Below are positions 8,427-63,600 of a stretch of 64,000 nt of DNA, piece by piece. A model generated the notes under the pieces. The model made no database searches. It was given only the letters and a program-made list of their open reading frames with translations, and was not told where the DNA came from. This DNA comes from Sialis fuliginosa (lineage: Eukaryota; Arthropoda; Insecta; Megaloptera; Sialidae), in NCBI GenBank assembly GCA_961205875.1, contig OY540821.1, forward strand, positions 6,820,001 through 6,884,000, read 5' to 3'. Each line of letters starts with the position of its first letter. The first letter of the stretch is position 1. Position numbers and translations under genes: made by a program.

Positions 8427-8972
8427 AATAGGCTTGATTCCAGTAACAAAGGATCACTGAAATTATGATTTTAAATAATGAAATAAGTTAAAAAGATTCT
8501 AAAAAATGTATTTATTTTTATATTAAAAGCGAGATTAATATAATTTTTGTTAAAATAAAAACGCAAAATACAGCAATCCGCCATGTTTGATAAAACACCA
8601 GTCAGAGTGGATGACGTCACGGCTACGTAAACGTCATTTTTGTTTCATTAATATCTACACTGTTTATACAATATTTTGTGGTTTTAAATTATCAATTTGC
8701 TCAATTTTGTATTACCAAAAGTAAAACCGAGAAACGTTAGCGATGGAACAAGGATTTATTATAGTTGACAAGGTGTGTTTACATAGGCATGACGTCAAAA
8801 ATGCGCCATGACACCTGCGAGCATTTTGGCGTCAAATTCAAAATTAGTTTTAAAAGCGTCAATTTTTGTGATTAAACCTTTATTTTCTGCAGAAATAAGC
8901 ATTTTTTTTGGAAATAAGAGACACGTAAGATCATCATAAAATAGTTTTTAAAAATTAGGCATCATGCCTATT
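8427..8972 (+). mobile_element. 546-bp MITE with AATAGGC..GAT ends, copy 1
   Basis: The left end is AATAGGCTTGAT and the right end ATCATGCCTATT, an imperfect 12-bp inverted repeat. The same sequence occurs in reverse orientation at 19318-19862 with high similarity over its full length. Two TGACGTCA-type sites (near 8612 and 8790) are kept in both copies. No coding capacity is seen. Confidence 0.8.
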
Positions 8973-13152: not shown

Positions 13153-16100
13153 ATGCAATTAAGGGTTAAAGATAATAGTGTAAGCTACATTTAAAAAAAA
13201 AACTGGAGTCTCCTCGATCGCGCCAAGTTGAGATATTAACTATTCAATTTACTTCTTTGTTAGCGTATGAGTTTTAATTTGTTTTTTAGTTTTAACTTGT
13301 TTTTAAAAAGGGAAGGAGCACGCGAAGGTCTTTAAGTGCGTGATGCTCTTAAAGATAATAGTGTAAGCTACATTTTAAAAAAAAACTGGAGTCTCCTCGA
13401 TCGCACCAAGCTGAGATATTAACTATTCAATTTACTTCTTTGTTACCGTATGAGTTTTAATTTGTTTTTTTAGTTTTAACTTGTTTTTAAAAAGGGAAGG
13501 AGCACGCGAAGGTCTTTAAGTGCGTGATGCTCTTAAAGATAATAGTGTAAGCTACATTTTAAAAAAAAACTGGAGTCTCTTCGATCGCGCAAAGCTGAGA
13601 TATTAACTATTCAATTTACTTCTTTGTTAGCGTATGAGTTTTAATTTGTTTTTTTAGTTTTAACTTGTTTTTAAAAAGGGAAGGAGCACGCGAAGGTCTT
13701 TAAGTGCGTGATGCTCTTAAAGATAATAGTGTAAGCTACATTTTAAAAAAAACTGGAGTCTCTTCGATCGCGCAAAGCTGAGATATTAACTATTCAATTT
13801 ACTTCTTTGTTAGCGTATGAGTTTTAATTTGTTTTTTTAGTTTTAACTTGTTTTTAAAAAGGGAAGGAGCACGCGAAGGTCTTTAAGTGCGTGATGCTCT
13901 TAAAGATAATAGTGTAAGCTACATTTTAAAAAAAAACTGGAGTCTCTTCGATCGCGCCAAGCTGAGATATTAACTATTCAATTTACTTCTTTGTTAGCGT
14001 ATGAGTTTTAATTTGTTTTTTTAGTTTTAACTTGTTTTTAAAAAGGGAAGGAGCACGCAAAGGTCTTTATGTGCGTGATGTTCTTAAAGATAATAGTGTA
14101 AGCTACATTTAAAAAAAAAACTGGAGTCTCTTCGATCGCGCCAAGCTGAGATATTAACTATTCAATTTACTTCTTTGTTAGCGTATGAGTTTTAATTTGT
14201 TTTTTTAGTTTTAACTTGTTTTTAAAAAGGGAAGGAGCACGCGAAGGTCTTTAAGTGCGTGATGCTCTTAAAGATAATAGTGTAAGCTACATTTTAAAAA
14301 AAAACTGGAGTCTCCTCGATCGCACCAAGCTGAGATATTAACTATTCAATTTACTTCTTTGTTACCGTATGAGTTTTAATTTGTTTTTTTAGTTTTAACT
14401 TGTTTTTAAAAAGGGAAGGAGCACGCGAAGGTCTTTAAGTGCGTGATGCTCTTAAAGATAATAGTGTAAGCTACATTTTAAAAAAAAACTGGAGTCTCCT
14501 CGATCGCACCAAGCTGAGATATTAACTATTCAATTTACTTCTTTGTTACCGTATGAGTTTTAATTTGTTTTTTTAGTTTTAACTTGTTTTTAAAAAGGGA
14601 AGGAGCACGCGAAGGTCTTTAAGTGCGTGATGCTCTTAAAGATAATAGTGTAAGCTACATTTTAAAAAAAAACTGGAGTCTCTTCGATCGCGCCAAGCTG
14701 AGATATTAACTATTCAATTTACTTCTTTGTTAGCGTATGAGTTTTAATTTGTTTTTTTAGTTTTAACTTGTTTTTAAAAAGGGAAGGAGCACGCGAAGGT
14801 CTTTAAGTGCGTGATGCTCTTAAAGATAATAGTGTAAGCTACATTTAAAAAAAAAACTGGAGTCTCCTCGATCGCACCAAGCTGAGATATTAACTATTCA
14901 ATTTACTTCTTTGTTAGCGTATGAGTTTTTATTTGTTTTTTTAGTTTTAACTTGTTTTTAAAAAGGGAAGTAGCACGCGAAGGTCTTTATGTGCGTGATG
15001 CTCTTAAAGATAATAGTGTAAGCTACATTTTAAAAAAAAACTGGAGTCTCTTCGATCGCGCCAAGCTGAGATATTAACTATTCAATTTACTTCTTTGTTA
15101 GCGTATGAGTTTTAATTTGTTTTTTTAGTTTTAACTTGTTTTTAAAAAGGGAAGGAGCACGCGAAGGTCTTTAAGTGCGTGATGCTCTTAAAGATAATAG
15201 TGTAAACTACATTTTAAAAAAAAAATGGAGTCTCTTCGATCGCGCCAAGCTGAGATATTAACTATTCAATTTACTTCTTTGTTAGCGTATGAGTTTTAAT
15301 TTGTTTTTTTTAGTTTTAACTTGTTTTTAAAAAGGGAAGGAGCACGCGAAGGTCTTTAAGTGCGTGATGCTCTTAAAGATAATAGTGTAAGCTACATTTA
15401 AAAAAAAAACTGGAGTCTCTTCGATCGCGCCAAGCTGAGATATTAACTATTCAATTTACTTCTTTGTTAGCGTATGAGTTTTAATTTGTTTTTTTTTAGT
15501 TTTAACTTGTTTTTAAAAAGGGAAGGAGCACGCGAAGGTCTTTAAGTGCGTGATGTTCTTAAAGATAATAGTGTAAGCTACATTTAAAAAAAAAAACTGG
15601 AGTCTCTTCGATCGCGCCAAGCTGAGATATTAACTATTCAATTTACTTCTTTGTTAGCGTATGAGTTTTAATTTGTTTTTTTAGTTTTAACTTGTTTTTA
15701 AAAAGGGAAGGAGCACGCGAAGGTCTTTAAGTGCGTGATGCTCTTAAAGATAATAGTGTAAGCTACATTTTAAAAAAAAACTGGAGTCTCCTCGATCGCA
15801 CCAAGCTGAGATATTAACTATTCAATTTACTTCTTTGTTACCGTATGAGTTTTAATTTGTTTTTTTAGTTTTAACTTGTTTTTAAAAAGGGAAGGAGCAC
15901 GCGAAGGTCTTTAAGTGCGTGATGCTCTTAAAGATAATAGTGTAAGCTACATTTTAAAAAAAAACTGGAGTCTCCTCGATCGCACCAAGCTGAGATATTA
16001 ACTATTCAATTTACTTCTTTGTTACCGTATGAGTTTTAATTTGTTTTTTTAGTTTTAACTTGTTTTTAAAAAGGGAAGGAGCACGCGAAGGTCTTTAAGT

Positions 16101-17793
16101 GCGTGATGCTTTTAAAGATAATAGTGTAAGCTACATTTTAAAAAAAAACTGGAGTCTCTTCGATCGCGCCAAGCTGAGATATTAACTATTCAATTTACTT
16201 CTTTGTTAGCGTATGAGTTTTAATTTGTTTTTTTTTAGTTTTAACTTGTTTTTAAAAAGGGAAGGAGCACGCGAAGGTCTTTAAGTGCGTGTTGCTCTTA
16301 AAGATAATAGTGTAAGCTACATTTTAAAAAAAAACTGGAGTCTCTTCGATCGCGCCAAGCTGAGATATTAACTATTCAATTTACTTCTTTGTTAGCGTAT
16401 GAGTTTTAATTTGTTTTTTTAGTTTTAACTTGTTTTTAAAAAGGGAAGGAGCACGCGAAGGTCTTTAAGTGCGTGATGCTCTTAAAGATAATAGTGTAAG
16501 CTACATTTAAAAAAAAAACTGGAGTCTCCTCGATCGCACCAAGCTGAGATATTAACTATTCAATTTACTTCTTTGTTAGCGTATGAGTTTTTATTTGTTT
16601 TTTTAGTTTTAACTTGTTTTTAAAAAGGGAAGTAGCACGCGAAGGTCTTTATGTGCGTGATGCTCTTAAAGATAATAGTGTAAGCTACATTTTAAAAAAA
16701 AACTGGAGTCTCTTCGATCGCGCCAAGCTGAGATATTAACTATTCAATTTACTTCTTTGTTAGCGTATGAGTTTTAATTTGTTTTTTTAGTTTTAACTTG
16801 TTTTTAAAAAGGGAAGGAGCACGCGAAGGTCTTTAAGTGCGTGATGCTCTTAAAGATAATAGTGTAAACTACATTTTAAAAAAAAAATGGAGTCTCTTCG
16901 ATCGCGCCAAGCTGAGATATTAACTATTCAATTTACTTCTTTGTTAGCGTATGAGTTTTAATTTGTTTTTTTTAGTTTTAACTTGTTTTTAAAAAGGGAA
17001 GGAGCACGCGAAGGTCTTTAAGTGCGTGATGCTCTTAAAGATAATAGTGTAAGCTACATTTAAAAAAAAAACTGGAGTCTCTTCGATCGCGCCAAGCTGA
17101 GATATTAACTATTCAATTTACTTCTTTGTTAGCGTATGAGTTTTAATTTGTTTTTTTTTTAGTTTTAACTTGTTTTTAAAAAGGGAAGGAGCACGCGAAG
17201 GTCTTTAAGTGCGTGATGCTCTTAAAGATAATAGTGTAAGCTACATTTTAAAAAAAAACTGGAGTCTCTTCGATCGCGCCAAGCTGAGATATTAACTATT
17301 CAATTTACTTCTTTGTTAGCGTATGAGTTTTAATTTGTTTTTTTTAGTTTTAACTTGTTTTTAAAAAGGGAAGGAGCACGCGAAGGTCTTTAAGTGCGTG
17401 ATGCTCTTAAAGATAATAGTGTAAGCTACATTTTAAAAAAAAACTGGAGTCTCTTCGATCGCGCCAAGCTGAGATATTAACTATTCAATTTACTTCTTTG
17501 TTAGCGTATGAGTTTTAATTTGTTTTTTTTTAGTTTTAACTTGTTTTTAAAAAGGGAAGGAGCACGCGAAGGTCTTTAAGTGCGTGATGCTCTTAAAGAT
17601 AATAGTGTAAGCTACATTTAAAAAAAAAACTGGAGTCTCCTCGATCGCACCAAGCTGAGATATTAACTATTCAATTTACTTCTTTGTTAGCGTATGAGTT
17701 TTTATTTGTTTTTTTAGTTTTAACTTGTTTTTAAAAAGGGAAGTAGCACGCGAAGGTCTTTAAGTGCGTGATGCTCTTAACCCTTAATTGCAT
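13153..17793 (+). repeat. Satellite array, 25 copies of a 184-bp monomer, bounded by 17-bp inverted repeats
   Basis: The landmark GATAATAGTG recurs at 13171, 13354, 13538, 13722, 13905, 14089 and on at 183-187-bp steps to 17598, giving 25 monomers that end near 17776. Length changes come mostly from A and T runs. Each monomer carries a dyad (GAGCACGC..GCGTGATGCTC). The array is closed by ATGCAATTAAGGGTTAA at 13153-13169 and its exact complement at 17777-17793. No coding capacity. Monomer variants recur in the same order in two blocks, showing higher-order structure. Confidence 0.95.
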
Positions 17794-19317: not shown

Positions 19318-19862
19318 AATATGCATGATGCCTAATTTTTAAAAACTATTTTATAATGATCTTACGTGTCTCTTATTTCCAAAAAAATGCATATTTCTGC
19401 AGAAAATAAAGGTTTAATCACAAAAATTGACCCTTTTAAAACTAATTTTGAAATTGACGCCAAAACGCTCGCAGGTGTCATGGCGCATTTTTGACGTCAC
19501 GCCTATGTAAACACTCCTTATCAACTATAATAAATCCTTGTTACATCGCTAATGTTTCTCGGTTTTACTTTTGATAACACAAAACTGAGCAAATTGATAA
19601 TTTAAAACTACAAAATAATTTATAAACAGTGCAGATATTAATGAAACAAAAATGACGTTTACGTAGCCGTGACGTCATCCACTCTGACTGGTGTTTTATC
19701 AAACATGGCGGATTTCTGTATTTTGCGTTTTTATTTTAACAAAAATCATATTAATCTCGCTTTTAATATAAAAATAAATACATGTTGTAGAATCTTTTTA
19801 ACTTATTTCATTATTTAAAATCATAATTTCAGTGATACTTTGTTACTGGTATCATGCCTATT
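19318..19862 (-). mobile_element. 545-bp MITE, copy 2, inverted relative to 8427-8972
   Basis: The full-length complement of the element at 8427-8972, ending ATCATGCCTATT at 19862. The TGACGTCA sites and the CCATGTTTGATAAAACAC block are kept. It is about 10 kb from its partner and in opposite orientation, so the two could pair. Confidence 0.8.
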
Positions 19863-43559: not shown

Positions 43560-44862
43560 TTACTAAGTAATCTAGAACTGTTTGCAAAACAAAATGTAAC
43601 AATTAATAAAATGTTATTGTAGTAATATTTAATGTGTATATTATGCTAATTGAATAAATGATTAAATTAAGTACTGTATTAATGAAATTGTAATGTAATC
43701 CTATTAGAAATAAATCAATTTACTAACAAATTGTAATTTTTAAGATTAGTATATGGAACCTATAGGCTTAAATTTGAGTTTTTAAATAGTTATATAGATA
43801 CATTTTGGTTCAAATAGTGTAAATTATAGTTAAAATTATTTTTTATAAAATATAGGACTATTTATTTATTTATTTACAATATAATATTTCTACTTTTCTT
43901 TATCAGTTAACTGATAAAAAATACTCAATCAATCGTGAAAGATATCTTCACAAAAGGTTAATATTCAATGCTATGTATGGTGAAAAATGAAGTAAAGAAA
44001 TAAATTAAAAACCATTTAATTTCAGCTTCAAAATGTTTTAAAAAAATTTGATTTACATTTTTTTTCAGAGAGGTATTTAACATTTAAGCAGAATTGTCAT
44101 TTTGACTTGTAAGCTTGTAAAGGGTTAACAAATCATTGAATGACATTTGTTCAGAAATGTGTGGAGAGCTTGAAATTTTCTCTTTAAATTGCATTTATTG
44201 ATTTTTTGTATACATTTTTCTACTTGCAATAAATGCAAAGGGTTTTTACTTTGTGAATCGAATTAAAAAATCAATAAATGCAATTTTAATGAAAAAAGTT
44301 CAAACTTTCCACACATTTCTCAAAAAAATGTTATACGATGATTTATTAACCCTTTGCAAGCACACAAAGTAAAATAAACAATTTTGACTTAATGTTAAAT
44401 AACTTCATAAAAAAAATTTGTAAATCAAATTTAAAAACAGCAATTTGAAGCTAAATTTCTACGCTTTCAAGTAACATCAACAGATCTTGCCTGAAAAAAT
44501 TATTTAACCTCATGCACCTTTTTCAAAATTTGCAAAAAAATATGCAATTTTTTTTCTGTGTTGACTCTATAACATCGCTAAAAATAAATTAAATTTCAAT
44601 CTGTAAAAAGCATTGAAAAGTAGAGATTTCAAGCTTTAAAATGTATTTTTATTTATTACTGTACCTCAATTTTTATCACAATTACAGACTTTTGAATATC
44701 ACCTTTTTTCTATGAATATTTTGAACCCTTAATAAATTTGACGAGTGTATAATATTAATAATTCTTTATTTAATTATTTGTTATAATATTTAACAAAGCA
44801 TATAATAATATGTATTTATATATATAAAATAATTATTAAAGATTAATAACAGAATAAACATA
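43560..44862. other. Convergent intergenic region
   Basis: Lies between the plus-strand small gene and the minus-strand Sec3 3' end. It holds polyadenylation signals for both (43604, 43653 plus; complement at 44765-44770 minus) and the foldback repeat at 44019-44460. No gene. Confidence 0.6.
44019..44460. repeat. Foldback repeat, two arms of about 200 bp
   Basis: The left arm (from TTTCAGCTTCAAAATG) and the complement of the right arm (TTTAGCTTCAAATTGCTG) stay alignable through TTGATTTACA, TATTTAACATT, GGGTTAA and GAAATGTGTGGA. They meet at GCATTTATTGATTTTTT and its complement near 44195-44285. The whole segment could form one long hairpin RNA. There are no target duplications or coding capacity. 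Confidence 0.75.
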
Positions 44863-47800: not shown

Positions 47801-48669
47801 TTTTTATTGTTTTCATGTGCTATCGCTATCAGTGAGTTTTTATTTTCAACAGACTGCATTGTCTCTCTAACTAGGCATAATACTTCATCGTAAGCTTCTA
47901 AACGAGTTTCTATGATACTTGCTTCTTTTTCAGCTTCTTCTATTTGTTTCATCAATGCTTCGACCTGTAAATTTGTTTATTATCAAAAATATGAACAATT
48001 TGGCATTGTATTAATTACCTTTTGTTCAGACGCTAGAATAATCTGTACATTCTGTCCATCAAGTACAGACAAATCCTTTGATAACATTTCCATAAATCTT
48101 CCTGCATCGCTGATTGCAAATTCACAGTTTGCAATAAGTTTACTCAATTCGGCTTGTTCTTTTTCAGTAATCGCTTGAAACTCTTCATTTGCTTCTATAT
48201 TTTCAATATTAATGTCTGTAGGTGTTTCGATTATACTTTCTGGAGATAAAGTTTCACTTATCCAATTTTCAGGAACATTTTTAAATATCGGTTTCTGTTT
48301 GGGTAAATGTCGACAGCATTGTTTCCATAAGATGATAAAAAAGTTTTGACGTTCTTGCGGACTCGAAGCTAGCCATTTGTATACTTTGTCAAAATGTAAG
48401 TCAAACTCATGTGTATCGCTGCTAGGTTTTATACCATCTGCTACTTTTAAGTTCGACAGGAGCCATGACCGTTTCTTTTTATATAAACCTTTATCGGTGG
48501 TTTTTACTTGCCATATTGAAACAGTAAGTGGTGATTCTGTTGTGGTGACTATACATAAAAATGAAGTTTTCTTCTTTTTTACTAACTTACTTACATGACA
48601 AACTGATAAAAGTCTTTCATTAGACGGTTGAAATACATCTTTTTGCAAAGAATGACGAATTGCAGCCAT
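44863..48669 (-). CDS. Sec3: Exocyst complex component Sec3/EXOC1, complete, 8 coding exons, 884 aa
   Basis: Exons (minus): 48669-48019, 47964-47773, 47714-46956, 46883-46687, 46396-46035, 45465-45320, 45262-45068, 45015-44863. All junctions are GT-AG and in phase, giving 884 aa (human EXOC1 about 894). The start [20 protein letters not shown] matches the family start. Residues about 1-130 are the PH-like phosphoinositide-binding domain ([16 protein letters not shown]). A coiled coil follows (about 175-290), then the long Sec3 C-terminal helical domain ending [13 protein letters not shown] and [13 protein letters not shown], nearly invariant in animals. Sec3 helps mark sites on the plasma membrane where the octameric exocyst tethers secretory vesicles. 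Introns are short (46-360 bp), unlike neighbouring genes. A polyadenylation signal lies about 95 bp past the stop. An 11-kb foldback element begins 172 bp upstream of the ATG. Confidence 0.97.
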
Positions 48670-49182
48670 TTTTTATGTGTATTCTCAACTATACATAATA
48701 GTTAATATATTTTTTATGTTAGATTTAATATAATAAATAATATAGTATAATATTTCGTTTATTTTATAAATGCATTTTACTTTAAGATAAGGTTAAGGTA
48801 TTTTGACATTGACATATTTTTTTTGATTTTTTTGACTGTCATTAGGGTGCTTTTTCATGAACGCTAGACGCTAGCGTCGAATACTGTCACGTGACCTATT
48901 TTGATGCTGGCTGTCAAAATCCTGTTTGACGTTTAAGTGTAAAGCAAACAATATTCATTCATTTATTAAAAATTGATTTCATTTGAGTAATTTTGAGCAC
49001 AGTAAGAGATATAGACATGATGTCTAGTGTGTACAAGTATCAGGCGTAGATTACTCAATGTCAACAAACTATTGATACCAGATACACTCAAAAGAAAGAG
49101 AACATTGCGAAAAAGATTTCTGGCGGCTCTTGAAACCAGTAAAATATTGAATCAGAAGAAGAGACCTTATTAAAAAGAATTT

Positions 49183-50030
49183 TTGTGGGTTCATCCATTA
49201 TACCAGTTTCGACATAATCATGGATTTTATGAAGCCATATTTCCTACCCTTTCCATGCATGGAGACAAATTCAAAAATTATTTGCATATGACAATTGATT
49301 TTGAAGAACTGCTGTATTTAGTAGGCTCTCTTATTTCCAAACTGAATACAGTAAGAAATCCTATACCTGCTGCAGCACGACTATGATGTTGAGGTTAGTT
49401 TTTCATAGTAATTTTAATTAATCACTTAAATGCCTGAATCGTAAAAAATAAATGACCTCTCTGCAGATATTCAGCTACCGGAGACTGTATGATTTCTACT
49501 TCCTATCAATATCTTGTTGGTGTCACAATTTGGAGTTGTCTCAATAAGAACATGTTGCTAGCGAGTTTGAAAACTAGTGGTGTTTCAGTCATTCCATAGG
49601 CGCTCTTGATGGAAAACATGTAGTCATTCAGGTATGTAGAAATATTAAAAGTTGAGATGAGTTATTATTGAATAATAAAATTTATTACAGTACCCCGATA
49701 ATGCTGGCTCTGCATACTTCAGTTACAAAAATAATCACAGCATCGTATTGCTGGAAATCTGCAATGCCAATTATTTGTTCTCATTTGTTGATATAGATGC
49801 CTATGGCTAATGCAGCGATGGTGGAATTTTTTTTAGAGATGTAGTAGAAGTTTAACAATAGAAAAATGAATTTACCAAAATCTGAATCATTGACTTTTGA
49901 TGAAGTACCTTTAAGATATGTTCTTGTAGGAGATGAAACATTTCAATTTACAGATTTTATACTTCTCCGGTGTTCTGCAAAAGGAGGCAGGAAATAGAGA
50001 ATTCTGCGCTTGATTAAGGAAAAATTTTGT
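49183..50030 (+). pseudogene. PIF/Harbinger (HARBI1-like) transposase remnant, left arm
   Basis: The first open piece (49183-49383) starts WVHPLYQFRHNHGFYEAIFP and continues MTIDFEELLYLVGSLISKL. It matches the N-terminal part of DDE_Tnp_4 nucleases, where W-HP and F---F-MS--TF--LL--V are hallmarks. After an intron-like gap come IGALDGKHVVIQ (normally IGAIDGTH/KHV) and, past a second GT-AG gap, YPDNAGSAYFSYKNNHSIVL and FVDIDAYG with DGGIFF. RYVLVGDETF gives the region of the last catalytic Asp. Several stops (for example after DAYG) and frameshifts make it inactive. No MADF/Myb partner gene is seen. Confidence 0.8.
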
Positions 50031-50459
50031 GATTTTTTTACTAGGGAAGGAGCTATTTTGTGACAGTATAATCGTGACTGATATTTATTTTATGAATAGT
50101 ATGGAAAAGCTTGATGATTTATAAATTAAAATTCAGATAGTAAATTTTTTAATGTAACATAATTGATGATTATAAAAATTGTTAGTTTGATTGTCAAAAA
50201 CAGGATTTCTTAGTAATTAATACTAATTGTAAGTACATGTACCTATTTTATTTTATTAAATATTTTTTGAATAAGGCTAAAATATTATGCGTCTTGTGAT
50301 TTTTCGATATAATGTGTCGTTTGGTTGGAATTTTTAAATTTAGAAAAAATTAGAATATATCTCGCAACCCAAGGGTTCAGTGTTTGAATCCCAAGGTGAT
50401 CTGTTTTATTTTATTTTTTTTATTATATATAATAATACAATAAAAAGTATTTTATCAAT

Positions 50460-52620
50460 AAATAATCAATAGGTGCATCAATAATACATAATATCTACGT
50501 CTCAACAATGACGCCATGTAATAAGTACGTATATAATAAATATTTATAGATAAAAGATAAGTAATTTCAATTGTACAATATTTTATACCTGTGTAGATAA
50601 ACAGGTAACAATGAACTAATTAAGAGCATCTATGTAGATAAATAGATGCTTTAAATTCACTCGGTTTTCAGTTTTAAAAGTATACACGTCATCGTATGTA
50701 CACACTGATAACATACATTACCTCAGATTTTAAATTCATTCATTAATACATACGATAACGTCTCTTCTTTGACAAACAAAAATTTATTTAGTCGGAACGG
50801 CATCTGAAAATAATATTGAAATTTGAAAGGTACATGTGGCGCCATCTAGCAAAAACTACTTGAACTAATAAGTTTTTGATAGTTCAAGTTTGTCCTGCTA
50901 GATGGTGCTACATGTACTTTTTAAATTTCAATGTATTTTTCAGATGCCATTCCGACTAAATCATTTTTTTTTTGCAAGTTAGAGACGCTATCGTATGTTT
51001 TAAAGCATCCTAATTCCAAATATGCCCATAAAAAGTTGCACTCGAAATGATAAAACCGTGTTTTATCCACTTTTGTTTAAAAAAAATGTTAAAATTATAA
51101 ACCAGTGAATGTATTTAAAATCTGATAACATATATGTTATCAGTGAGTCTTCTTACATCCGATAGCGTGTCTATTACTTTCAAATTCAAAATGGGTGTAT
51201 CAATTAAAGTACTGAAAAACACATCCTTATTGAATTTGAAAATAATTAACACGCCATCGTATGTATTATGACACGCTGATAACATAAATGATAATAGATT
51301 TTAAATAAATTCACTGGTTCAAAATTTGATGAAATTATTTAAGACTAAACTTGATAAAAAACCATGTTATCGATCCGAGCGCAACTTTTTATGGGCATAT
51401 TTGGAATCAGGGTGCCCTAATACATACGATAGCGTCTCTAACTCGCCAAAAAAAATTTTTTCCAAAAAAGAAGCAAGGCTATAGTATGGCTTAAAAAACA
51501 GTCGAAAAACACTTTTTTCGATTTTCAAATAATTAGATACGTTATCGCATGTAAAGGGATACGCTAATTCGACAATTTTTATCTGTTGTGAAATTCATCA
51601 AAGGGTTCAAAAGTTACAGCCATTTTACGACGAAAAATTGATAAAAAACAGTGGTAGCGGTCCGAGCGGAATTTTTTATCAACATTTTTGGAATCACCAT
51701 GCTGTTATACATCCGATAGTATGCCTAACTCGACAAAAACAATTTTAATCTGATGACGGCACCTTCACCATGGTGAAGGTGCCGCCGTGTTACGTCATCA
51801 GATTAAAAAAATTTTTGTCGAGTTAGGCACGCTATCGTATGTATAACAACATGGTGATTCCAAAAATGTTGATAAAAAATTTCGCTCGGACCGCTATCAC
51901 TGTTTTTTTATCAATTTTTCGTCGTAAAATAGCTATAACTTTTGAACCCTTTGATGAATTTCTCAACTGATAAAAATTGTCGAATTAGCGTATCCCTTTA
52001 CATGCGATAACGTATCTAATTATTTGAAAATCGAAAAAAGTGTTTTTCGAGTGTTTTTTAAGCCATACTATAGCCTTGCTTCTTTTTTGGAAAAAAATTT
52101 TTTTGGCGAGTTAGAGACGCTATCGTATGTATTAGGGCACCCTGATTCCAAATATGCCTATAAAAAGTTGCGCTCGGATCGATAACATGGTTTTTTATCA
52201 ACTTTTGTTTTAAAAAATTTCATCAAAATTTGAACCAGTGAATTGATTTAAAATCTATTATCATTTATGTTATCAGCGTGTCATAATACATACGATGGCG
52301 TGTTAATTATTTTCAAATTCAATAAGGATGTGTTTTTCAGTACTTTAATTGATACATCCATTTTGAATTTGAAAACATTATGCACGCCATCATATGTAAA
52401 AGGACACGCTGATATCATATTTTACACCAGATTAAAATACCTTTGTTTGTTAAAAATTTCAAGCAAATTTTTTAGACAAATGTTGATAAAAAACAGTTTC
52501 ATCGATCCGAGCGAAACTTTTTATATACATTTTTGGACTCAGGATTCCCTAATACATACGATAACGTCTCTGACACGTTTAAAAAAAATTGACTTAATCG
52601 GAATGGCTTCTGAAAAATAA
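50460..52620 (-). repeat. Foldback unit, copy 1 (inverted)
   Basis: This is the mirror of the unit at 52630-54795; the two meet at a palindrome centre near 52625 (GGCTTCTGAAAAATAATAAT). Further centres inside lie near 50880 (a 150-bp hairpin around ATGGCGCCATCTAG-like arms) and 51773 (GCACCTTCACCATGGTGAAG). Motif copies of the CATACGATRRCGT type recur every 100-170 bp with alternating strand. The open frame at 52267-52620 is a repeat by-product. Confidence 0.8.
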
Positions 52621-52629
52621 TAATAATTT

Positions 52630-54795
52630 TTTCAGAAGTCATTCCGACTAAGTAAATTTTTTTAAACGTGTTAGAGACGTTATCGTATGTATTAGGACAA
52701 CCTGAGTCCAAAAATGTATATAAAAAGTTTCGCTCGGACCGATGAAACTGTTTTTTATCAACATTTGTCTAAAAAATTTGCTTGAATTTTTTAACAAACA
52801 AAGGAATTTTAATCTGGTGTTATATATGTTACCAGCGTGTCCTTTTGCATATGATGGCGTTTATAATATTTTCAAATTCAAAATGGATGTATCAATTAAA
52901 GTACTGAAAAACACATCCTTATTGAATTTGAAAATAATTAACACGCCATCGTATGTATTATGACACGCTGATAACATAAATGATAATAGATTTTAAATCA
53001 ATTCACTGGTTCAAATTTTGATGAAATTTTTTAAAACAAAAGTTGATAAAAAACCGTGTTATCGATCCGAGCGCAACTTTTTATGGGCATATTTGGAATC
53101 AGGGTGCCCTAATACATACGATAGCGTCTCTAACTCGCCAAAAAAATTTTTTTCCAAAAAAGAAGCAAGGCTATAGTATGGCTTAAAAAACACCCGAAAA
53201 ACACTTTTTTCGATTTTGAAATAATTAGATACGTTATCGCATGTAAAGGGATACGCTAATTCGACAATTTTTATCTGTTGTGAAATTCATCAAAGGGTTC
53301 AAAAGTTACAGCCATTTTACGACGAAAAATTGATAAAAAACAGTGGTAGCGGTCCGAGCGGAATTTTTTATCAATATTTTTGGAATCACCATGCTGTTAT
53401 ACATCCGATAGCGTGCCTAACTCGACAAAAAATTTTTTAATCTGATGACGTAACATGACGGCACCTCTACCATATATACAGAATAAATTTTTTTTTGATA
53501 TTTTTGTATTCCTTATTCAAAAATACCATATATATGTTATTTTTGTACATTTTTATTTATGGTGGAGGTGCTGTCATGTTACGTCATCAGATAAAAAATT
53601 TTTTTGTCGAGTTAGGCACGCTATCGGATGTATAACAGCATGGTGATTCCAAAAAAAATGATAAAAAAATCCGCTCGGACCGCTATCACTGTTTTTTATC
53701 AATTTTTCGTCGTAAAATGGCTGTAACTTTTGAACCCTTTGATGAATTTCACAACAGATAAAAATTGTCGAATTAGCGTATCCCTTTACATGCGATAACG
53801 TATCTAATTATTTCAAAATCGAAAAAAGTGTTTTTCGGGTGTTTTTTAAGCCATACTTATAGCCTTGCTTCTTTTTTGGAAAAAATTTTTTTTGGCGAGT
53901 TAGAGACGCTATCGTATGTATTAGGGCACCCTGATTCCAAATATGCCCATAAAAAGTTGCGCTCGGATCGATAACATGGTTTTTTATCAACTTTTGTTTT
54001 AAAAAATTTCATCAAAATTTGAACCAGTGAATTGATTTAAAATCTATTATCATTTATGTTATCAGCGAGTCTTTTTGCATACCATAGCGTGTTAATTATT
54101 TTCAAATTCAATAGGGATGTGTTTTTCAGAACTTTAATTGATACATCCATTTTGAATTTGAAAATATTAAACACGCCATCATATGCAAAAGGACACGCTG
54201 ATATCATATATTACACAAGATTAAATTTTTTTCATTTGTTAAAAATTTCAAGCAAATTTTTAGACAAATGTTGGTAAAAAACAGTTTTATCGATCCGAAC
54301 GAAACTTTTAATGTGAATTTTTGGAATCAGAGTGGTCTTATACATACGATAGCGGCTCTAACTCGACAAAAAATTTGACTTAGTCGATATGGCATCTGAA
54401 AAAATAATTGATATTTAAAAGGTACATGTAACACCATTTAGCGGGACAGACTTTAACAATCAAAAAGTTTTTCGTTCAAGATGTTTTTGGTAGATGGCAC
54501 CACATGTACCTTCTAATTTTAATATTTGTTTCAGATGCCATTCCGACTAAATCATTTTTTTTTTGTCACACATAGTTGTTTAGTATTTGTTAATATGTAT
54601 ACCTGTTTATTTACACAGGTATAACATACATGTTTGTTAACTGACTGAATTTATAACGTCTATTTATCTACATATATGCTCTTAATTAGTTATTTGTTAC
54701 CTGTTTATCTACACAGGTTATAAAATATTGTATAATTGAAAATTACTTACCTTTTATTTATAAATATTATTATATACTTATTACATGGCGTCATT
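52630..54795 (+). repeat. Foldback unit, copy 2 (direct)
   Basis: Same order as 56320-58545: TCATTCCGACTAAGTAAATT, then ACACATCCTTATTGAATTTG, GCGTCTCTAACTCGCC, a TA-rich hairpin at about 53515, the GGCATCTGAAAAA hairpin at about 54460, and the ACCTGTTTATCTACACAGGT block to GGCGTCATTT near 54795. It therefore ends with the segment that joins the Harbinger arm in the outer copies, but no arm follows here. Confidence 0.8.
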
Positions 54796-54799
54796 TTTA

Positions 54800-56020
54800 G
54801 ACCACTGAATATTTCCTGGGGAGGGGGGGTCGTCATCGTCGTCGTCGTCCCCGTTACTACGCTACTGGGGTCAATACAAAGAAATGTGTTCTATAATGTA
54901 TTTTCTTGCATCGACTTAGTTCACTGAGAAAATAATGCCCTTTAAAATTGAAAGGGCTGTGCCAGTCCGGTTCTGCCTTAAATAAATTAAAAAAAATTTA
55001 TTATCAATAATCCAAATGATTTTTATTTTTTATTTTCATATATTGGATTTTTTCCCACGCTATGGGCCGCCCGGCATTCCTTATGATTTTCCCTGTATAC
55101 ATTCATTGCGGTGCTACGATAGAAGCACCGGTGCTTCCCACGAGGTCGCGTGTCTCCCGGCGCATGCTAGAAACCCTATGTTGTATGTATTGAGGCCAAC
55201 ATAGTGAATTTTCCCACGCTATGGACGCCCGGCATTCCTCATGGTTTTCTCCGTATACGTTCATTGCGATGCTACGATAGAAGCGCCGGTGCTTCTCACG
55301 ATAGGCACGTGTCTCTGGCGCCCCTCCCCCTATTGTGAATTTTTGTGGAATTTTTTACATAATTAGTTTATTATTTAAGCGCCGCGACCTTCACAAATAT
55401 TTCTTCCCACGCCCGCCGCGTCATTCGCAAATATTTAATTCCCACGCCGCGGCGCCAGTACACATTCCTTAATTAAAGTTCGAATCACAAAGTTAAATAA
55501 ATACCTATGCATATTAACGATCTCCCAATAATAATAATAAAATAAATCCAGCCCGGTCACCCATCCAACAGTTGTCTTCGCTTGATACTGCTTAACTTCT
55601 GTGCAAATACAGAACGGGTGTATTCTTTATAAGCTGATCGCTGTATTTGTATGGTATTTCATTTACAGTATAAAATACTTCTCTTGTTTGAAAGTATATA
55701 ATTTTATTATTAAATTTAATCTAGTTTTATGAATTTGAATTTCAAATTAATAGTTTTTTTAATTACAGCCTTTATTAACGTAAATTATGTCAATAATACA
55801 TACATATATATCTGGATTAAGAAATTGGTCCATGTTTGACGATGTGTAACTTTGTAACTAATTATCATATAATTTTCTAAATGGTTTTTAAATGTTCGTT
55901 ATTTAATCTAGTTTTATGCATTCGAAATTCCAATCAATAGTTTTTTAGTTTAGTAGTCTTTAACGTAAAGTAAATCAAAAGAGATTTATTAAATAGGTAT
56001 GAATATTTATTTATCAAAAA
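54800..56020. other. Unique spacer inside the foldback element
   Basis: Starts with a G run and a (GTC)n stretch (54829-54852). At 55046-55200 and 55210-55330 it contains two related GC-richer copies of a block with CCCACGCTATGG, CCCGGCATTCC and TGCTACGATAGAAGC. The 5S-like segment lies at 55546-55625. No gene is recognised; short frames here lack family features. Base composition in 55050-55450 is clearly richer in G and C than the surroundings. Confidence 0.55.
55546..55625 (-). repeat. 5S rRNA-like segment (SINE3-type or 5S pseudogene)
   Basis: The minus strand reads CACCCGTTCTGTATTTGCAC, then AGAAGTTAAGCAGTATCAAG and CG, and later TTGGATGGGTGACCGGGCTG. It follows the order of the middle to 3' part of eukaryotic 5S rRNA, including the GAAGTTAAGC box A region and the TGGATGGGTGACC box C of the internal pol III promoter. 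Next comes a (TTA)n tail (55529-55545). The 5' third of 5S is missing. The simple-repeat tail suggests a 5S-derived SINE rather than a gene. Confidence 0.7.
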
Positions 56021-58545
56021 GAGTGTTTTTTGGTACGATAATTATTACATCTATTTTGAAATTGAAAGTAATAAACACGCTATCGTATGTATTATGACTC
56101 ACTGATAACATAAATGATATCAGATTTTAAATGCTTTCACTGGTTCATAATTTTAACATTTTTTTTTAGACAAAAGTTAATGAAAAACGGTTTTATCGGT
56201 CCGAGCGAAACTTTTTATATGCATTTTTGGACTCAGGATGCCCTAATACATACGATGACGTCTCTAACACGTTTAAAAAAAATTGATTTAATCGGAATGG
56301 CTTCTGAAAAATAATAATAATTTTTTCAGAAGTCATTCCGACTAAGTAAATTTTTTTAAACGTGTTAGAGACGTTATCGTATGTATTAGTGCATCCTGAG
56401 TCCAAAAATGTATATAAAAAGTTTCGCTCGGATCGATGAAACTGTTTTTTATCAACATTTGTCTAAAAAATTTGCTTGAAATTTTTAACAAACAAAGGCA
56501 TTTTAATCTGGTGTAATATATGATACCAGCGTGTCCTTTTACATATGATGGCGTGCATAATATTTTAAAATTCAAAATGGGTGTGTCAAATAAAGTACTG
56601 AAAAACACATCCTTATTGAATTTGAAAATAATTAACACGCCATCGTATGTATTATGACACGCTGATAACATAAATGATAATAGATTTTAAATCAATTCAC
56701 TGGTTCAAATTTTGATGAAATTCTTTAAAACAAAAGTTAATAAAAAACCGTGTTATCGATCCGAGCGCAACTTTTTATGGGCATATTTGGAATCAGGGTG
56801 CCCTAATACATACAATAGCGTCTCTAACTCGCCAAAAAAAATTTTTCCCCAAAAAGAAACAAGGCTATAGTATGGCTTAAAAAACACTCGAAAAACACTT
56901 TTTTCGATTTTCAAATAATTAGATACGTTATCGCATGTAAAGGGATACGCTAATTCGACAATTTATATCTGTTGCGAAATTCATCAAATGGTTCCACAGT
57001 TACAGCCATTTTACGACGAAAAATTGATAAAAAACAGTGGTAGCGGTCCGAGCGGAATTTTTTATCAACATTTTTGGAATCACCATGCTGTTATACATCC
57101 GATAGTGTGACTAACTCGACAAAAATTTTTTTTATCTGATGACGTAACATGACAGCACCTCCACCATATATACAGAATAATTTTTTTTTTGATATTTTTG
57201 TATTCCTTATTCAAAAATACCATATATATGTTATTTTTGTACATTTTTATTTATGGTGGAGGTGCTGTCATGTTACGTCATCAGATAAAATTTTTTTTGT
57301 CGAGTTAGGCACGCTATCGGATGTATAACAGCATGGTGATTCCAAAAATGTTGATAAAAAATTCCGCTCGGACCGCTATCACTGTTTTTTATCAATTTTT
57401 CGTCGTAAAATGGCTGTAACTTTTGAACCCTTTGATGAATTTCACAACAGATAAAAATTGTCGAATTAGTGTATCCCTTTACATGCGATAACGTATCTAA
57501 TTATTTGAAAATCGAAAAAAGTGTTTTTCGACTGTTTTTTAAGCCATACTATAGCCTTGCTTCTTTTTTGGAAAAAAAATTTTTTGGCGAGTTAGAGACG
57601 CTATCGTATGTATTAGGGCACCCTGATTCCAAATATGCCCATAAAAAGTTGCGCTCGGATCGATAACACGGTTTTTTATCAAGTTTAGTCTTAAATAATT
57701 TCATCAAATTTTGAACCAGTGAATTTATTTAAAATCTATTATCATTTATGTTATCAGCGTGTCATAATACATACGATGGCGTGTTAATTATTTTCAAATT
57801 CAATAAGGATGTGTTTTTCAGTACTTTAATTGATACACCCATTTTGAATTTGAAAGTAATAGACACGCTATCGGATGTAAGAAGACTCACTGATAACATA
57901 TATGTTATCAGATTTTAAATACATTCACTGGTTTATAATTTTAACATTTTTTTTAAACAAAAGTGGATAAAACACGGTTTTATCATTTCGAGTGCAACTT
58001 TTTATGGGCATATTTGGAATTAGGATGCTTTAAAACATACGATAGCGTCTCTAACTTGCAAAAAAAAAAATGATTTAGTCGGAATGGCATCTGAAAAATA
58101 CATTGAAATTTAAAAAGTACATGTAGCACCATCTAGCAGGACAAACTTGAACTATCAAAAACTTATTAGTTCAAGTAGTTTTTGCTAGATGGCGCCACAT
58201 GTACCTTTCAAATTTCAATATTATTTTCAGATGCCGTTCCGACTAAATAAATTTTTGTTTGTCAAAGAAGAGACGTTATCGTATGTATTAATGAATGAAT
58301 TTAAAATCTGAGGTAATGTATGTTATCAGTGTGTACATACGATGACGTGTATACTTTTAAAACTGAAAACCGAGTGAATTTAAAGCATCTATTTATCTAC
58401 ATAGATGCTCTTAATTAGTTCATTGTTACCTGTTTATCTACACAGGTATAAAATATTGTACAATTGAAATTACTTATCTTTTATCTATAAATATTTATTA
58501 TATACGTACTTATTACATGGCGTCATTGTTGAGACGTAGATATTA
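56020..58545 (+). repeat. Foldback unit, copy 3 (direct, 56320-58545) with a partial inverted piece (56020-56315)
   Basis: 56020-56315 is an inverted partial unit that meets the full unit at a palindrome centre near 56315, the same junction sequence as at 52625. The full unit then repeats the order of copy 2, with centres near 57215 and 58160, and runs straight into the right Harbinger arm. The identity between 50640-51770 and the complement of 57250-58400 is the inner part of the long inverted repeat. Confidence 0.8.
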
Positions 58546-58749
58546 TGTATTATTGATGCACCTATTGATTATTTATTGATAAAATACTTTTTATTGTATT
58601 ATTATATATAATAAAAAAAATAAAATAAAACAGATCACCTTGGGATTCAAACACTGAACCCTTGGGTTGCGAGATATATTCTAATTTTTTCTAAATTTAA
58701 AAATTCCAACCAAACGACACATTATATCGAAAAATCACAAGACGCATAA

Positions 58750-59520
58750 TATTTTAGCCTTATTCAAAAAATATTTAATAAAATAAAATAGGTACATGTA
58801 CTTACAATTAGTATTAATTCATTATTCTATTGTTAAACTTCTACTACATCTCTAAAAAAATTCCACCATCGCTGCATTAGCCATAGGCATCTATATCAAC
58901 AAATGAGAACAAATAATTGGCATTGCGGATTCCCAGCAATACGATGCTGTGATTATTTTTGTAACTGAAGTATGCAGAACCAGCATTATCAGGATACTGT
59001 AATAAATTGTATTACATTTTATTATTCAATGATAACTCATCTGAACTTTTAATATTTCTACATACCTGAATTACTACATGTTTCCTATCAAGAGCAATGA
59101 CTGAAATACCACTAGTTTTCAAACTCGCTAGCAATATATAGCAACATGTTCTTATTGAGACAACTCCAAATTGTGACACCAACAAGATATTGATGGGAAG
59201 TAGAAGGTAGATGAATATCTGCAGAGAGGTCATTTATTTTTTACGATTCAGGCATTTAAGTGATTAATTAAAATTACTATGAAAACTAACCTCAACATCA
59301 TAGTCGTGCTGCAGAAGGTATAGGATTTCTTACTGTATTCAGTTTGGAAATAAGAGAGCCTACTAAATACAACAGGTCTTCAAAATCAATTGTCATACGC
59401 AAATAATTTTTGAATTTGTCTCCATGCATGGAAAGGGTAGGAAATATGGCTTCATAAAATCCATGATTATGTCGAAACTGGTATAATGGATGAACCCACA
59501 AAAATTCTTTTTAATAAGGT
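58750..59520 (-). pseudogene. PIF/Harbinger transposase remnant, right arm
   Basis: The complement of the left-arm copy. 59501-59298 codes the same WVHPLYQFRHNHGFYEAIFP piece with few changes. 59233-59012 reads KTSGISVIALDRKHVVIQ, and the SYKNNHSIVL and DAYG pieces follow towards 58870. Frame breaks differ in part from the left arm (for example in 59012-59233 the frame stays open where the left copy has a stop), so the copies have drifted independently since duplication. Confidence 0.8.
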
Positions 59521-59851
59521 CTCTTCTTCTGATTCAATATTTTACTGGTTTCAAGAGCCGCCAGAAATCTTTTTCGCAATGTTCTCTTTCTTTTGAGTGT
59601 ATCTGGTATCAATAGTTTGTTGACATTGAGTAATCTACGCCTGATACTTGTACACACTAGACATCATGTCTATATGTCTTACTGTACTCAAAATTACTCA
59701 AATGAAATCAATTTTTAATAAATGAATGAATATTGTTTGCTTTACACTTAAACGTCAAACAGAATTTTGACAGCCAGCATCAAAATAGGTCACGTGACAA
59801 TATTCGACGCTAGCGTCTAGCGTTACATGAAAAGTGAAAAGGTAGCCTAAT

Positions 59852-60602
59852 ACGACGGTATTTCAGTTTACTATCTTATCCGTTTTTATTTGAATCAGGG
59901 GCGGACAGTTATTATCGTTATTATCATTATAGTTTAATTAATTGATATTGTTTATAATTATATTAACTAAGGTTATTGATAATATACTACCATTTAAAAT
60001 TTAAGATACATTGAATAATAGAGCTTTAATACTAGTATTAAGTTATTTATACAATTTTAAAAATGAATTCAAAAAAATAAAAATTATATTTGTAACATAA
60101 TATTTTATATACATTTTACAATCACTTATTTAAATTATAATGGAATGAATACAAGCAAAAAATTGTAAGGTTTTTAATGTATTATTTATATAGCACAGCC
60201 GAATTACAAAATAATATAATTAAAATTAAAAAAGTATTTTTTTACAAACATGACCTAATAATGTATATTATTATTAATATGGGTTTATATAGAAAATACA
60301 TATAAAATATATAATATGTACATCAATTGGATAAGTTTATTAAAAAAATGCATTTACATATATATTTATTTTAAAATGCATTTAGTAAATTAAAAAAAAA
60401 TTAAAATAAAATAAAAATATATGTATTTAGTAACAGTTTATAAAGACTATAATTTCAAAAAATAAATATGATTTGTTTAAATATGGTGCATTAATTATAT
60501 TTTTGTCAGTATCAATCAAAAGAATCATTGTTATTTTACATAAATGTATACACAACATTCAGTCAGATATTGGCAACCTTTTTACATTTAGAAATATGTA
60601 TT
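59852..60602. other. Intergenic DNA 3' of SCYL2
   Basis: AT-rich, no open frame or repeat end recognised. The 3' untranslated region of SCYL2 (minus strand) must lie here. Confidence 0.5.
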
Positions 60603-63600
60603 TTAACTCAAAAGGTCCATAATATCGTCATTTGATAGCTGATTATTTGAATTATTTGGTGCATTTGGTGACTGCAACAATGGCTGTTGGTGGGGCTGCT
60701 TCATTTGATTCATAGGGATTTTAGGTGTTGTCGTTGGCAATAGCGAATCCAATGCGCTCCAAGTTTGACTGTTCGTATTTTGAAATGGCGGTTGCGATTG
60801 TTGAAAGCCACCAAAATTCGGAGTTTTGTTCCATACATTTGGATTACTTCCAGTTTGCCAATTTTGAATCTGATTTGTCGGTGATTGTATGGACCAATTT
60901 GCCGGAGTGTTAGATGAAGGAGAAACTATGTTTTGTTGTGGTTTCCAGTTAGTGTTTTGCGTGACATTACTTTTATTCGTTAATAACATTTGGTTCATGT
61001 TTGATTGCATTAATGTAGAAGTTAAGTCTTTTGTTGGAGGTGGAATTTTTTGCACAGGAACTGGTGAAATAGCTGGCTGACTTCGTAATCTTTGTGTAGA
61101 TTCTTGTTGTTTCACCAACCTAAAAAAATATTACATTTTAAAAGTGTTCATGTTAAAAATTAAAATAAAAGTTAATATACCTTTGTTTTTCTTCTAAACT
61201 AAGAGAATTTCCGGATCCATTTGTAATAACTGGTGTTACGGTTTTATTTTCTACACTTGGAGGAGTGTGTTTCGGGCTATCGCCAACGTATGATTCTAGA
61301 CCGAGTCCTGAGAACATTTGGTCTATCGATGAGTTTGCTTGCGTCTGTTGTGCCGAAGCAGATGAGTGAATGTTCATGTTTAATGTGCTGGAAATGTAAT
61401 TATTTTTCGTAATAATTATGTAATTTTGTTAAGTATATTCATTAATTTCAAAACAACAATTTTTTTATTTTAATTTTAACTTATATTTTTATATTGTAGT
61501 TAAAATAGCTGCATTTGTGGCAATACAGCTTTCTTGGGTGTCACAATGTACTATATACACTATAGTAGATTTAAAAACTAATACATACAGAACAAAAACA
61601 GAAAATTATAAACGATTTAATATTAAGTGTACAAATTTTAAAACATCAATATATTTTTTATATTTATAATCTAAAAGTCGGTTTATTATTTGCGGTTCAG
61701 TTCTTGTACAAGCTCCTGTTAAAAAGATAAATAAAAAAGTGTTAATATAAGTTTAAAGTGATGTTTTAAACACACCTCTGTTCTTTTTGTATCGAATTGA
61801 GCTGTTCTAACTTGTTACGATGTTCATTTTCAACCTGGTTCACCATTTCTTTGACAAGAGAGACGAGCGCATTGAACTGATTCAAAGTAAGTCCATTTTC
61901 AATACATAAAGGCATTAAAAATGGTAAAACTTTTGTAGCTAATACTTCTTTAGTTATTCCTAGTTTTTTATGTGTGAGAGCTAGTTTATAGATTCCTGAA
62001 AATTAACGATTATATAAGTTTTTAATAATTTTATTTTATATAATGTATAAAATTTAACATTATTATGATAAAAAAATATTTAACAAAAATCTAAATTTTG
62101 TTTCACTAATCCAGCATTTCCCAAAGTGGGTTCCATGGAAAAATTCAGGAGTTCTGCATGTTTGTTAATGGTTTAACTTCACTCAGGCATTGCTAATAGA
62201 AATGTGTAATTCGGGATTAATTAGTTCTTTTTGAACTTATCTTTTTAATTGTAATAGTTATTAGAATTTTTGTCTGTCTGTTTTACATTTGTAGCTTTTA
62301 TAACTTTGATTATTACATAGTCATAGGTCACTTACCAAGAATTCCCATAAGTACAGCAGGTTCTCTAGATGGTATTTGTGAAAGAAACGGTAAAACTTCA
62401 TCCAAAACTAACCACTTGTCTAAATGTTCCAACAGTTTTCCAAGACATAATAAACAGTTCACTCTAACCGATATATAATTAGTCGACAGGCACAACTTCT
62501 TAATCCTAGGCAAAAGTGCATTCTTCATGGCTGGATAATCAATCAGCGATGCAAAAGTCGGCAACACCGACAAACACAACTCTTGTATCTGTTGGGCGTC
62601 TGATTCAAGTGCACGATACAACATAGGTAGAACATCTGTTTTAATTTCTTCAGCTGGCGTAAGTTTTAACATCAGTTCCATTTTTTGCATGAAAATCAGC
62701 AAGATCTGAATCGGGTCTTGAATTTTCATCACCGGTTTCAAAATTGGTAATATGTGGTTGATAAATTCATCTTTTGATGCGTTTTCGGATATAAGTAGGA
62801 CGTTAGGTAATACGAAAGGGACCATGGGAGGATTGACGAATTCTTTTGCAAGGCATGGAATGATTCGGTATAAGCAGACTCTATGAGGAAGGGTTGGGAT
62901 TATCTGTGGTAGGCCTTTGTAGAACTGTGATTTTTGTAGGTTATCCCATTGGAATAGGGAATCAAGGTAGTTTAGTGTTTTTACTCCAACATCTTCGAAA
63001 AATGGTACCTGCATTGAAAAATATTCAGTTGTTTATCTACTATTCTATAAGGAATGTTTAGGGGCTGTAAAGTTATTTTATGTACCTTGACAAATTGTTG
63101 AGCATCTGGTCGAAGTTCTGGGGTTATATTTAACATTAACTTCACATATTCCACCAAACCTTCAGCTATACATTGTAATTTTGAGGACGGCAATTGCTTC
63201 AACTAATTCATAAAAAATATTATTATTTTATAATTATAGTTTCAAATAAAATTACTTACATCTTTACAAAATTTCTTGTATTTTCCATAATCCCCTTGGC
63301 ACAGAGGTAAAGTTTTACCTCCCGGAGAATATAAAGTATAGACTAACATTCCTAATGAATAAATATCGCTTGACGTCGAATGGGACTGAGTTAGAGTGTA
63401 CTCAGGCGCTAAATATTCTAGATTTGGTTGTGTCAACGGGTGCAATGCTGGGGTATATTCCGTAAATGGCCAGAATGCCTAGAAGTCAAAGATATTAGAT
63501 TATAAATATTAAATTAAATATCCTAATTTTTACCTGACTTTCATGAGGATTTTGATTCAAGACGCAAAAATCAAACCCGAATATCTTCCACGCTCCTTGC

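Follow-up and report, generated by a model that had tools for sequence, protein, structure and literature searches.

The 64-kb window (the whole stretch of 64,000 nucleotides of Sialis fuliginosa DNA analysed here) contains a mirror-image repeat of ~11 kb, both ends of which are one dead Harbinger transposase region, facing each other. Its inverted arms (48845-51758 and 57276-59847), each made up of an end of PIF/Harbinger type that includes a disrupted transposase and of ~1.5 kb of lattice, enclose a lattice in which repeats stand in both inverted and direct orientation. The reading we prefer, to which we give about an even chance, is a non-autonomous foldback element in which one and the same end, the 5' end of a PIF/Harbinger-type transposon that was already dead, forms both borders. 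A preliminary description had proposed head-to-head Harbinger ends with an internal foldback lattice, and this was confirmed by self-BLAST, end comparison, Pfam and the unit profile. The inverted arms it reported are real, as seen in self-BLAST and alignment, but they measure ~2.9 kb on the left and ~2.6 kb on the right, not just over 1.3 kb, and its span of 48841..59851 is roughly right, with the borders corrected to 48845 and 59847. The lattice of inverted and direct unit copies is present in the interior of ~8 kb assigned to it, except for ~1.2 kb (54803-56022) that is not lattice. As in foldback elements, the inverted ends are long and internally repetitive, holding repeat units. The features are listed in Table 1.

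Table 1. Features of the mirror-image repeat and its immediate flanks, in window coordinates
Feature	Position	Strand	Evidence
TTA flank, left border	48842..48844	+	Border/flank comparison
Left Harbinger-derived stretch: end with GACGCTAGCGTC palindrome, then decayed PIF/Harbinger-type transposase	48845..50214	+	DDE_Tnp_4 E 6.7e-8, joined pieces
Arm segment P; its right-arm copy is without substitution; a MITE-like inverted-repeat piece begins inside (~50788-50959)	50215..50935	+	Self-BLAST, arm alignment
Half-block A1: three ~184-bp units d, a, b	50936..51758	+	Unit profile
Half-block A2: b', a', c'	51770..52619	-	Self-BLAST, unit profile
Half-block A3: c, a, b	52628..53450	+	Self-BLAST, unit profile
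Half-block A4: b', a', c'	53559..54408	-	Self-BLAST, unit profile
Internal truncated copy of segment P	54409..54802	-	Self-BLAST 50499-51758 vs 54802-53582, 84.6%
Non-lattice stretch: tandem duplicate 55050-55340 and weak 5S rRNA-like match 55529-55645 (minus)	54803..56022	.	Repeat finding, Rfam
Orphan unit (56077-56261) and flanks	56023..56313	-	Self-BLAST, unit profile
Half-block A6: c, a, b	56322..57144	+	Self-BLAST, unit profile
Half-block A7: b', a', d'; mirrors A1	57253..58100	-	Self-BLAST, unit profile
Right-arm segment P	58101..58819	-	Self-BLAST
Right Harbinger-derived stretch, ~346 bases shorter than left, AATT microhomology	58820..59847	-	Alignment, Pfam
TAA flank, right border	59848..59850	+	Border/flank comparison

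Self-BLAST of the window retrieved one copy of the element and matched its arms in an outer part (48852-49872 with 59833-58816, 93.6%) and an inner part (50215-51758 with 58819-57276, 99.35%). Aligned as a single piece over 2,540 bases, the arms differ by 29 substitutions (98.86% identity) and 14 gap rows, four of which lie in the ragged outermost ~20 bases, while two represent a single ~346-base loss from the right arm. The AATT microhomology at the junction of this loss counts in favour of the preferred reading. The inverted-arm structure is far beyond chance: inverted matches without any mismatch reach 759 nt, compared with a maximum of 22 in 100 dinucleotide shuffles and with 20-25 in all six 11-kb stretches taken elsewhere in the window, of which some overlap.

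Substitutions are unevenly distributed along the arms, with 0/786 in 50215-51000, 21/992 in the Harbinger part and 8/758 in the innermost part. The substitution-free tract runs to 51363, spanning 1,149 bases with a single 1-base indel, and the unevenness with the tract at this full length gives p values of 8.6e-8 and 1.7e-5, for a tract picked after looking. Homogenisation of the mid-arm region is the simplest account of this clustering, which counts in favour of the preferred reading. Large inverted repeats are usual misassembly sites, and such a clean tract is also what an assembly artefact, either a palindromic chimera or mis-joined haplotypes, might leave. We consider an artefact highly improbable, given the 29 substitutions and several private indels between the arms, and given flanks that are unrelated, whereas a read-through palindrome would mirror them.

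The outer borders are flanked by TTA on the left and TAA on the right, both of which we take to be TWA-type. The outermost ~20 bases differ between the ends, which counts against the preferred reading; inward of them homology is near-complete and beyond the borders there is none, so that both outer ends are the same transposon end in inverted orientation. Over ~400 bases of host flank beyond the borders, no similarity was detected in either orientation, inverted or direct (score 12 each; mean 12.2 and maximum 21 in 300 shuffles). Since on either side arm similarity goes no further than the TTA-flanked end, and since the host flanks are asymmetric, a plain segmental duplication is disfavoured and it is plausible, as far as sequence can tell, that the whole is one element. 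A direct 3-bp TWA target duplication is absent at the borders (TTA vs TAA), and next to the ends, within 4 bases, no direct match is longer than 2 bases. This absence counts against the preferred reading, and we therefore call the whole Harbinger-derived and not a member of PIF/Harbinger.

The missing duplication would also fit an in-place patchwork, in which a Harbinger relic and a separate MITE/satellite-like array underwent a later local inverted duplication and never moved as a whole. Two further observations point the same way. The interior lacks symmetry around the arm centre and includes 1.2 kb of unrelated sequence, which counts against the foldback reading, and the b units toward the centre are no closer arm to arm (97.8%) than either arm is to A3 (98.4%). 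However, one would expect a local duplication to bring host flank along, whereas the similarity goes no further than the transposon end in either arm, and we regard the patchwork as doubtful, albeit a serious contender. Flanks that are both of TWA-type yet non-matching, together with the differing outermost 20 bases, are likewise consistent with a chimera, in which two long-ended Harbinger foldbacks would have recombined ectopically, each end keeping the flank of a different insertion. In the available part of the source, Galileo chimeras are described as having non-matching flanks, resembling copies at inversion breakpoints (PMC3573991). The arms here are 98.9% identical, unlike the divergent ends of those chimeras, and one later change in a single flank would explain the same data, making a recombinant origin quite unlikely.

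The joined transposase pieces of the left arm matched Pfam DDE_Tnp_4, a family that we take to mark PIF/Harbinger, at E 6.7e-8 and 32.8 bits (cut-off 24.8). Those of the right arm reached E 6.2e-5 and 23.1 bits, 1.7 bits below the cut-off, which counts against the preferred reading. The remaining three of the five submitted pieces, all N-terminal, had no Pfam match, and a PDB search with the joined pieces gave two weak matches to unrelated proteins. These transposase remains and the TWA-type flanks at both borders are the features that the element shares with PIF/Harbinger. In a gall midge, the consulted part of the report describes some PIF/Harbinger copies with 84-bp ends (PMC8504770), whereas here one end and its transposase are doubled.

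The transposase is decayed in both arms. Two stop codons, one after 'KKRPY' and one after 'DAYG', are common to both, as the frame break near 49385 also appears to be. Because the two stops are shared, the gene was probably dead before the arms formed, unless conversion spread the lesions; the proposed duplication of an ancestral Harbinger is to be refined accordingly, the copy having probably been dead already. In a search for a Myb/MADF partner gene, four of the longer pieces free of stops in 50100-50960 and 54790-56040 matched no Pfam family, and the lattice ORF at 52252-52620 had no Pfam match.

An iterated profile of the ~184-bp unit picked out 19 full and 2 partial copies (21 places in total); these all fall in 50686-58348, and the rest of the window gave no match at E 0.01. 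Of the 34 occurrences of a 12-base unit-end pattern in the window, against an expectation of 0.55, 33 lie inside the element. Scored with gap costs included and against shuffles, the unit ends are inverted repeats of ~35 bases that outscore every one of 500 shuffles in 16 units out of 19; in the other three, the 35-base ends were reached by 8, 3 and 13 of 500 shuffles. The unit cores without their ends are not inverted, being reached by 5 to 172 of 200 shuffles across all 19 units. The units are, as judged from their sequence, MITE-like in form. Whole units as near-palindromes were rejected: with gaps left out, their identity to their own reverse complement (66-83%) is no better than that of controls (on average 74% for shuffled units and 73% for random window stretches), and profile matches on both strands are uninformative for a profile itself built from both strands. 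Gap-free whole-unit identities under ~85% are unusable, and shuffle-controlled values exist for six representatives.

Compared pairwise in the better orientation and with gaps counted, these six type representatives are 64-85% alike, in each case far above 200 shuffles. Units follow the order c-a-b within half-blocks (d-a-b in the outermost), alternating with the mirrored b'-a'-c'. Types a and b are 92-99.5% alike within type across six half-blocks, and half-blocks A2, A3 and A6 are ~96% alike. The outermost half-blocks, A1 and A7, are 99.1% alike and both carry the distinct unit d, which is 73-75% like the c units and nearer to a and the orphan unit. A small inverted-repeat piece lies at five block junctions (each end at 5 places, with at most 4 substitutions). 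The MITE-like inverted-repeat piece at 50788-50959 and 58075-58246 contains GCGCCATCTAGC or its complement, which may resemble an insect CTCF motif.

The 5S rRNA-like match in the non-lattice stretch covers the whole model at 19.4 bits (gathering score 38, E 0.47) and may perhaps be a 5S-derived SINE remnant. In 48000-60500, Rfam microRNA families gave 25 matches, all under gathering scores, which we put down to spurious hairpins from the inverted repeats, and a tRNA gene search returned none. Elsewhere in the window, a tandem satellite (13166-17780) has a period of 184, 25 copies and 97% matches. Despite its equal length, it was rejected as a relative of the lattice unit (score 8, reached by 299 of 300 shuffles). 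This satellite is flanked by an inverted pair (8427-8972 and 19318-19862; 546 bases, 95% identical), and ~440 bases at 44018-44457 align to their own reverse complement at 75%.

The unit end AGACGCTATCGT has 11 of 12 bases in common with the Harbinger end palindrome AGACGCTAGCGT. This likeness was equalled by 38 of 2,000 shuffles and 14 of 2,000 random window stretches, in a comparison picked after looking, and a kinship of unit ends with the Harbinger end is suggestive only. Because of this resemblance, a putative bolder reading can be put forward: a Harbinger-ended foldback moving as an 11-kb unit, whose ~184-bp units would be amplified transposase-binding sites and whose lattice would have grown as an array of the recognition sequence of the parent itself, possibly serving as a hairpin-RNA source against that parent. 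Its model is Galileo, whose long-end repeats hold extra transposase-binding sites according to the part of the report at hand (PMC3688188). We consider this reading unlikely as a whole.

Under the preferred foldback reading, the inverted copy would have arisen by template switching or by gap repair following abortive transposition, and the units may have been amplified by hairpin-prone replication or unequal exchange, processes with precedent in foldback elements. The arms would then have been partially homogenised through gene conversion, and any movement would have depended on a transposase supplied from elsewhere that recognises both ends.

Several known systems resemble this layout in part; what follows reflects the portions of each source that were available. 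Tetris, of Drosophila virilis, is a non-autonomous foldback whose ends consist of ~220-bp repeats, found in satellite-like arrays as well (PMC4079207). It is alike in being a non-autonomous foldback with ends made of repeats, but those repeats are tandem, whereas here ~184-bp inverted-ended units alternate in mirrored order between Harbinger-type ends. In Galileo, of the P superfamily, inverted ends reach up to ~1.2 kb and some have been extended by internal sequence recruited in inverted orientation ('2RT' copies); the longest-ended copies are without a transposase ORF, and chimeras are without matching target duplications (PMC3573991). Such end extension counts in favour of the preferred reading, although Galileo belongs to another superfamily and the sequence recruited there is spacer, not transposase gene. 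Foldback architecture also occurs in a nematode Mutator/foldback family (PMC3169594).

Mu killer of maize has both ends from one parental end, flanking inverted partial transposase copies (PMC3440606), and the element here likewise combines two copies of one end with partial transposase in inverted orientation. However, Mu killer is a plant element of the Mutator family with a proposed ~4-kb hairpin, no repeat lattice is described in the available part of that source, and Mu killer silences its parent, an effect that is hypothetical here. By analogy, the element might act as a hairpin-RNA locus, whose long dsRNA with transposase sequence would give rise to small RNAs silencing live Harbingers. 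The Mu killer-like layout, lying ~170 bases from a host start codon, is consistent with this, as is one Drosophila simulans hairpin-RNA locus with transposon-homologous arms, in the portion of the report at hand (PMC10317233). Nevertheless, the transposase arms lie ~9 kb apart and the Mu killer model of hairpins formed by flanking-gene read-through is itself contradicted (PMC3440606), so we hold such a role to be very unlikely. It would concern function, not origin, and could coexist with the preferred foldback explanation.

These parallels show that the preliminary claim of an architecture without a name was overstated, as parts of it are described in Tetris (PMC4079207), Galileo (PMC3573991) and Mu killer (PMC3440606) as far as these sources were available. 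The parts have precedents, and Harbinger ends around mirrored MITE-like units are an unusual combination. No Harbinger-ended foldback appeared among the matches listed in a literature search covering titles and abstract openings, with subscription journals mostly outside its range, and one may still be in print. Reported foldbacks include members of the P superfamily (Galileo, PMC3573991), a nematode Mutator/foldback family (PMC3169594) and, as with Tetris, unassigned elements. A Harbinger-ended case would suggest that the same route, through a doubled end, a recruited transposase piece and amplified repeats, is taken in another superfamily, and would allow arrays to be tested as binding sites, satellite seeds or hairpin-RNA sources.

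Searches of viral contigs gave 0 and 4 matches for unit-end patterns and 0 and 0 for Harbinger-stretch patterns. A search with a protein piece gave 15 pattern stretches and no relatives. A pattern search of prokaryotic genome contigs returned 4 matches, all in prokaryote records, with ~15 expected by chance, and the unit profile had no match in 8 retrieved loci. As the collections searched hold prokaryotes and viruses, these negative results on relatives weigh little.

To the right of the element lies a minus-strand gene, presumably SCYL2, with an open frame ending at 60603; this frame had no Pfam match, and a nearby open frame gave a HEAT match below the cut-off. The left neighbour, likewise read from the minus strand, is a Sec3/EXOC1 gene (Pfam Sec3-PIP2_bind, E 1.5e-22; Sec3_C-term in two other open frames), with its start codon near 48669. 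The element begins ~170 bases upstream of this start codon and could influence the regulation of the exocyst gene.
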